A stretch of 64,000 nt of DNA from the NCBI GenBank assembly GCA_949317995.1, contig OX439035.1, positions 85,003,959-85,067,958 of the forward strand. Reading direction: 5' to 3'. The notes beneath the pieces are model-generated. The model saw only the letters and a program-made list of their open reading frames with translations, did no database searches and was not told the origin of the DNA. This document shows, piece by piece, positions 4,715 through 48,206 of the stretch; the first letter of the stretch is position 1, and each line of letters starts with the position of its first letter. Source of the DNA: Acholoe squamosa. Taxonomy: Eukaryota > Annelida > Polychaeta > Phyllodocida > Polynoidae. A program made the translations under genes and the position numbers.

Positions 4715-4982
4715 GATCAGATAGATGTAGGTGATCAGGTGTCTGAGAAGCCTCCTCCTTATGTGCCCACCCAGAGTCTGACCGTACCTACCACAATGCC
4801 GGAGGGTCGCAATAGCCGGTCCAAGTCGTGGAGCGGGCGTCCGCTGTGGATGGAGAAAGAGTATGCCGGCCGGATCAAGGTGCCGCACACATTCGTCGTC
4901 CACAACTACACACGGCCCACCATGTGCCAGTTCTGCAAGAAGCTCCTGCGTGGATTGTTCAGACAGGGACAGCAGTGTAAAG
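4715..4982 (+). CDS. PRKD: PRKD exon: linker plus first half of C1b (canonical copy)
   Basis: Encodes an inter-C1 linker with RSKSWSGRP, like the 14-3-3-binding serine motifs between C1a and C1b of vertebrate PKD, followed by [16 protein letters not shown] and [17 protein letters not shown]. This supplies the first His and three of the Cys zinc ligands of the C1 pattern. The donor is AG|GTCAGT after 4982, leaving one base of a split codon (phase 1) that is completed at 7987. The 3' splice site is uncertain: CAG at 4714, 4720 or 4738 would all give phase 0, and an in-frame stop at 4691 bounds the exon. A second, diverged copy of the C1 half lies at 5757-5859. Confidence 0.9.

Positions 4983-48206: not shown

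Follow-up and report, generated by a model that had tools for sequence, protein, structure and literature searches.

Candidate alternative exon copies at three places in a protein kinase D gene of the annelid Acholoe squamosa

Vertebrates have three protein kinase D genes, PRKD1, PRKD2 and PRKD3. The locus studied here raises the question of how many forms of the kinase a lone annelid gene could encode by splicing. It lies in a 64,000-nucleotide stretch of the Acholoe squamosa genome (hereafter the window; positions 85003959–85067958), for which an initial annotation described a PRKD gene with three exon positions present twice. We judge it rather probable that this is an apparently single PRKD gene in which three places have long-kept alternative copies of an internal exon, chosen by splicing; we infer the use of the copies and its effects from the genome sequence.

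Structure and copy number of the gene

The model, built from the window and ~60 kb of upstream sequence, gives a complete PRKD gene of 20 exons that extends from approximately −57.8 kb to 48206, with GT–AG introns (Table 1). The 5′ end is ~58 kb upstream of the window, which contains most of the gene, and the canonical frame runs uninterrupted for 869 codons from a putative start codon (MSATVEEG) placed from the frame only. Pfam recognised Ubiquitin_PRKD1_N (E value 2.9e-31), C1_1 (3.1e-28, in two stretches), PH (1.8e-6) and Pkinase (2.2e-73). The PRKD domain order was found, with an N-terminal ubiquitin-like domain followed by two C1 domains, PH and kinase, and the identity proposed in the initial annotation is borne out. 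A 28-residue segment of the catalytic and activation loops is identical to what we take to be the corresponding segment of human PRKD2, and the named entries among the best 120 of 2,761 protein matches were PRKDs, the rest being unnamed or hypothetical. In a tree of 23 PRKDs, the Acholoe gene was placed among annelids (91/93) with Capitella, Owenia, Helobdella and two Logan entries. An extra exon at ~9800 was considered and rejected, E7 joining E8 in phase without one.

For the copy number, we searched the genome (1.48 Gb in 63 contigs) with one exon, the activation-loop exon E16, as the query, the match counts being lower bounds. As E16 had a single strong match (E value 6.8e-12; the next 0.51), the gene appears to be single-copy.

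Table 1. Exons of the PRKD gene placed in the window; positions are those of the window and phases are given as start→end.
Exon	Content	Positions	Strand	Length (nt)	Phase
E5	Canonical; 55-aa C1a–C1b linker and first C1b half (34 residues)	4715..4982	+	268	0→1
E5v	Variant first C1b half (34 residues)	5757..5859	+	103	0→1
E6	C1b second half, common to both forms	7987..8064	+		
E7	Acidic linker	8786..8954	+		
E8	PH domain part 1	10545..10668	+		
E9	PH domain part 2	11033..11110	+		
E10	PH domain part 3	11693..11963	+		
E11	Kinase start, glycine loop	12186..12305	+		
E12	β3 and αC, ends ...NEVSILQ	12875..12981	+		
M1	Microexon RAQVYKQDQ	13565..13591	+	27	0→0
M2	Microexon RAQVYKEDQ	14932..14958	+	27	0→0
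E13	αC–β4 loop and β4, 19 residues, begins NLHHPG	16299..16355	+	57	
E14	β5 onwards	16694..16798	+		
E15	Catalytic loop HCDLKPEN	42052..42150	+		
E16	DFG and activation loop	42603..42687	+		
E17	APE, αF	43005..43080	+		
E18	αG with acidic patch	43375..43481	+		ends in 1
E19v	Variant αH–αI, 30 residues, donor GTGCTC	45008..45096	+	89	1→0
E19	Canonical αH–αI, 29 residues	46470..46555	+	86	1→0
E20	C-terminal exon with stop codon	47997..48206	+		

Three pairs of exons and their maintenance

The three duplicated sites that the initial annotation had pointed out are all present in the sequence, judged by pair scores against shuffled queries and by a direct repeat, and the copies agree in splice phase with GT–AG boundaries at each of them (0–1, 0–0 and 1–0). 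Exon lengths are similar at the αH–αI site (86 and 89 nt) and for the microexons (27 and 27 nt), and dissimilar within the C1b pair (268 and 103 nt). Inverted repeats near the αH–αI and C1b pairs were mostly AT-rich or mutually overlapping.

At C1b, where a half-domain had been read as present twice, a second copy of the half-domain does exist, but E5v replaces the whole of E5 and not the C1b half alone. Against the canonical 34-residue half, E5v scored 96 (mean best score 29.1 and maximum 46 in 40 query shuffles). The C1a half of the same gene scored 94 against that query, and E5 is therefore about as similar to C1a as to E5v. E5v itself is much nearer to E5 (48%, E value 1.5e-4) than to C1a (34%, E value 3.46), and the genome search matched it best with the E5 of its own gene (next E value 0.025). 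The two are recognisable as protein only, blastn giving no match between the copies when 400 bases around each were included. The zinc-ligand pattern of the first half, HX12CX2CX13C, has identical spacing in E5 and E5v, with the cysteines and the histidine kept; at three C1 positions E5v is substituted, Q27 being replaced by N, R22 by I and F25 by H. We take P11, G23 and Q27 to mark a diacylglycerol (DAG)-binding, or typical, C1 domain, Q27 being presumably important. E5v keeps P11 and G23 and has N at position 27, and so departs from that set at one of the three positions.

The second site consists of two microexons, both inside the 3,317-nt intron between E12 and E13 (αC–β4) and each preceded by TTACAG and followed by GTACGAC. 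Three introns were scanned for splice-flanked segments of 9–75 nt, which gave one candidate, and a repeat search then gave its twin. The pair forms a 51-nt direct repeat of 80% identity and is the sole duplicated pair linked by blastn. When splice-flanked candidate exons were compared all against all within each intron of the gene, M1 and M2 scored 43, compared with 7 for the runner-up among 206 gene-strand pairs and 11 for the top pair among 302 reverse-strand controls. A degenerate pattern covering the microexon and its splice sites had two matches in the genome, both here, and the reversed control pattern had none. Three of the four changed codons between M1 and M2 are synonymous, and five randomly placed changes keep at least eight of the nine residues with a P value of 0.005. 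The αC/β4 microexon described earlier as duplicated is real as a twin of 27-nt exons, but the idea that these are copies of the β4 exon E13 was rejected, and a second copy of E13 was not found. On sequence the microexons are a strong case, yet they are known from this genome alone. Their peptide is absent from 121 retrieved proteins, and none of 120 aligned proteins has a nine-residue insert at the position, where one Littorina model has a four-residue extension.

At the third site, E19v scored 60 against E19 (shuffles: mean 29.6, maximum 46). With 400 bases around each included, the two gave no blastn match and are recognisable as protein only. E19v retains R784 and H793, invariant in 34 PRKDs, and a W common to most PRKDs. 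It has E in place of Q798, the last residue of the segment and invariant in the 34 PRKDs including the bivalve variants, and the net charge of the segment changes from +3 in E19 to +1. A second exon with the same phases is thus present where helix H had been described as duplicated, but its match to E19 (43%, E value 8.3) is no closer than its matches to kinase-like exons at large.

Joint inclusion or joint skipping of the copies breaks the frame at C1b and αH–αI, and not at the microexons. Stops arise at residue 315 or 244 with E5 and E5v joined or both skipped, and at residue 802 or 777 with E19v and E19 joined or both skipped. Since the frame shifts with both or neither, these two sites behave as mutually exclusive exons should. 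The microexons have a length that is a multiple of three and are therefore free cassettes, of which neither, either or both fit the frame. All 16 exon combinations gave full open frames, of 814–888 residues. The earlier proposal of at least 12 isoforms (2 × 3 × 2) counts the case in which the two microexons are never joined; otherwise 2 × 4 × 2 = 16 predicted isoforms are open.

To assess the copies as a whole, we compared identity within the exons with that of the intron background. Identical positions numbered 55 of 103 at C1b (background 0.24), 42 of 86 at αH–αI (0.27) and 22 of 27 in the microexons (0.22), the upstream background comparison at C1b being partly E5's own linker. In simulations of neutral drift from the canonical copy, the residue identity kept had P values of 0.0002 (C1b) and 0.00035 (αH–αI), and the third-position excess had P values of 0.0008 at αH–αI and 0.073, which is marginal, at C1b. 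As the flanking introns have drifted to background and the exons have not, the copies look maintained. In Pfam, a model with E5v, M1 and E19v scored little below the canonical form, with 237 vs. 247 bits for the kinase and 93.7 vs. 97.8 for C1.

The C1b variant is the weakest of the three sites, with no relative found in the protein search and a conserved linker lost. Choosing E5v deletes the 55-residue linker including its GRP motif, which is invariant in 34 aligned PRKDs and occurs as [ST]GRP in 98 of the 121 retrieved proteins. A segment-restricted protein search, which reaches only proteins sharing exact five-residue words, gave one candidate and none at an E value ≤ 1 for E5v, and the 120 aligned proteins had ordinary C1b sequence. 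Taken with the change of Q to N at position 27 and the marginal third-position excess, this gives some weight to the reading that only the αH–αI copies and the microexons are live and that E5v is a half-exon copy that is old, out of use or decaying. We regard that as unlikely though deserving serious attention: E5v has no stop, the zinc ligands of the half-domain and the residue identity are retained, both splice sites and both phases are intact, and the E5v form passes the Pfam C1_1 cut-off (27.6 bits vs. 26.5).

The αH–αI alternative in other animals and the origin of E19v

The αH–αI site is strong as an alternative place, and an alternative at this position is supported in other spiralians by NCBI models of the same gene and the same segment. 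For Ostrea edulis, the canonical segment is seen in two models (X2 and X4) and a different one in four (X3, X5, X8 and X9); a noncanonical segment is also found in models of Magallana gigas, Mizuhopecten yessoensis, Potamilus streckersoni and Lineus longissimus. These bivalve and nemertean variants are NCBI predicted models. The 121 retrieved proteins comprised 112 with the canonical segment, 8 (from five species) with a variant and 1 (Helobdella) without the segment. The frequency of the alternative cannot be read from these counts, as the proteins were clustered at 90% and isoforms are hidden. Of the three sites, this one has an alternative in protein models of related phyla, in bivalves and a nemertean; the C1b variant and the αC–β4 microexon of the Acholoe gene were not found in the PRKD models retrieved.

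The variants of the other species keep the invariant R and H and run into the common last part of the protein, and those of the bivalves keep the final Q. An extra codon before the exon end is common to E19v and the variants of four bivalve species and is not seen in Lineus. The identity of E19v is 23–34% to the other variants and 38–45% to the canonical exons compared.

Several of the models differ in further ways. The Helobdella (leech) model without the αH–αI segment may have been mispredicted at a duplicated exon. The six Ostrea edulis models also vary in the presence of three optional stretches, which are 16, 16 and 7 residues long, and inserts were seen in the glycine-loop/β3 region, before β3, in Lineus and in the β4–β5 turn in Tubulanus and Nucella, which may be further spliced sites or model errors.

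An in-place duplication is unproven for E19v, as the genome contains kinase-like exons elsewhere that are as close to it as E19 is, some of them slightly closer (best E value 0.027). E19v could have been captured from another CAMK-type kinase and would still be an alternative exon at its present place. It is 48% identical to CaMK1, with which a tree of 30 columns joins it at 90/91, and one kinase-like locus that matches E19v, L028, seems to share its starting phase; L027, L029 and L030, three of the nine loci compared, gave no match and were left out of account. However, no candidate source exon above 48% identity was found in the genome, and the bivalve variants occupy the same place in PRKD and carry the same extra codon. 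The 30 columns moreover reject neither grouping, the AU P value being 0.136 when E19v is placed with E19 and 0.328 when it is placed with the bivalve variants; one common origin for all the variants was likewise not rejected (0.18). Capture from another kinase seems to us improbable as the origin of E19v.

The donor of E19v is the weakest among the spliced exons of the model (−1.22), and 18% of the GTs in the window score as high. If it were read through, E19v could act as an alternative last exon with a short tail and intronic polyadenylation; the open frame continues to 45369, and AATAAA occurs at 45728, 45760 and 46287. We think this very unlikely, given that the tail would cross a simple repeat (HIYIYIYS), that the variant models of the bivalves and Lineus continue into the common last part and that the frame at the E19v donor fits E20. 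That all extra copies are nonfunctional relics or an assembly artefact is hardly credible in view of the drift of the introns and not of the exons, the predominance of synonymous changes between the microexons and the recurrence of the αH–αI alternative in models of other animals.

Predicted consequences and comparison with known systems

In the reading that we prefer, with alternative copies kept at all three places, splicing would select a single member of each of the pairs E5/E5v and E19v/E19, and would include neither, one or conceivably both microexons. The regulatory domains of protein kinase D (PKD) keep it inactive, as does a face-to-face kinase dimer formed via the αG acidic patch and the activation loop (PMC9962925); the kinase is released by C1 engagement of DAG (PMC6768651). 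E5v would rebuild the DAG-binding rim of C1b and remove the C1a–C1b linker, and would thereby most likely alter membrane recruitment and autoinhibition. A microexon would lengthen the loop right after αC and would most likely tune activity; in EGFR, insertions of 1–7 residues after αC stabilise the active αC in simulations (PMC7961794). E19v would replace the αH–αI surface and lower its charge, changing partner contacts with the fold kept. The dimer contacts listed in the PKD text consulted (PMC9962925) do not include this surface, and the αG patch sits in the constant part of the gene.

A bolder proposal, which we put forward tentatively and consider doubtful, is that the lone annelid PRKD achieves through splicing what in vertebrates falls to PRKD1/2/3. 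Lipid sensing at C1b, N-lobe allostery at αC–β4 and the C-lobe surface would then be set independently and by tissue, and the C-lobe switch would date from early spiralians. If the copies are used, membrane recruitment, activity and docking of the kinase would each be splice-switchable in one gene, and the αC–β4 microexon would be a physiological, twin-copy counterpart of an alteration seen in cancer kinases (EGFR exon 20). The locus would also allow a direct test of exon and gene duplication as interchangeable routes to PKD diversity.

The JNK exons 6a and 6b are duplicated and mutually exclusive. JNK1 (MAPK8; zebrafish jnk1a exons 7/8) resembles the present gene in having alternative exons within the kinase domain (exons 6a/6b; PMC7259801), combined with other alternative ends, and differs in being a MAP kinase with a different segment affected and one site instead of three. 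FYN (FynB/FynT) shares mutually exclusive duplicated exons that reach the kinase N-lobe, but it is a tyrosine kinase with one site, affecting the linker and the ATP site and not C1b, αC–β4 and αH–αI; it is among the 236 human tandem duplicated exon events compiled in a study whose main text lacks "PRKD" (PMC9741552). In the muscle myosin heavy chain of annelids, molluscs and arthropods, one invertebrate gene has several duplicated-exon sites where other animals have several genes, exon clusters being reported in annelids and molluscs (PMC3912159). That gene encodes a motor protein and has larger clusters, with cDNA support in many genes. The EGFR exon-20 insertions are alike in that a short run of residues is added where αC ends or in the αC–β4 loop, but they are cancer mutations of 1–7 residues, unspliced and in another kinase.

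Duplicated alternative exons are thus known in kinases (FYN, JNK), and we found no description of a PRKD gene with three duplicated-exon sites in the literature searched, which covered titles and abstract openings and few subscription papers. The novelty claimed in the initial annotation holds to that extent, but alternative αH–αI exons are already in database models: the swap is present in those of bivalves and a nemertean, and is unremarked in the titles and abstract openings searched.

The window contains several other features. In the 25-kb intron of the PRKD gene, the minus strand between 18630 and 25374 encodes a Death domain (18630–19208) and a ZU5 domain (21781–22593), together with a long frame with no clear Pfam family (23812–25374); the three stretches may form one nested gene. 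A 456-codon open stretch with no Pfam family over the cut-off lies on the minus strand of the same intron (34135–35502). The long intron also carries tandem arrays at 28967–29229 (29 nt, 9.1 copies) and 30716–31653 (201 nt, 4.7 copies). At 50385–51073, a 43-nt unit is repeated in tandem 16 times with 97% matches, and both strands have several open frames there.
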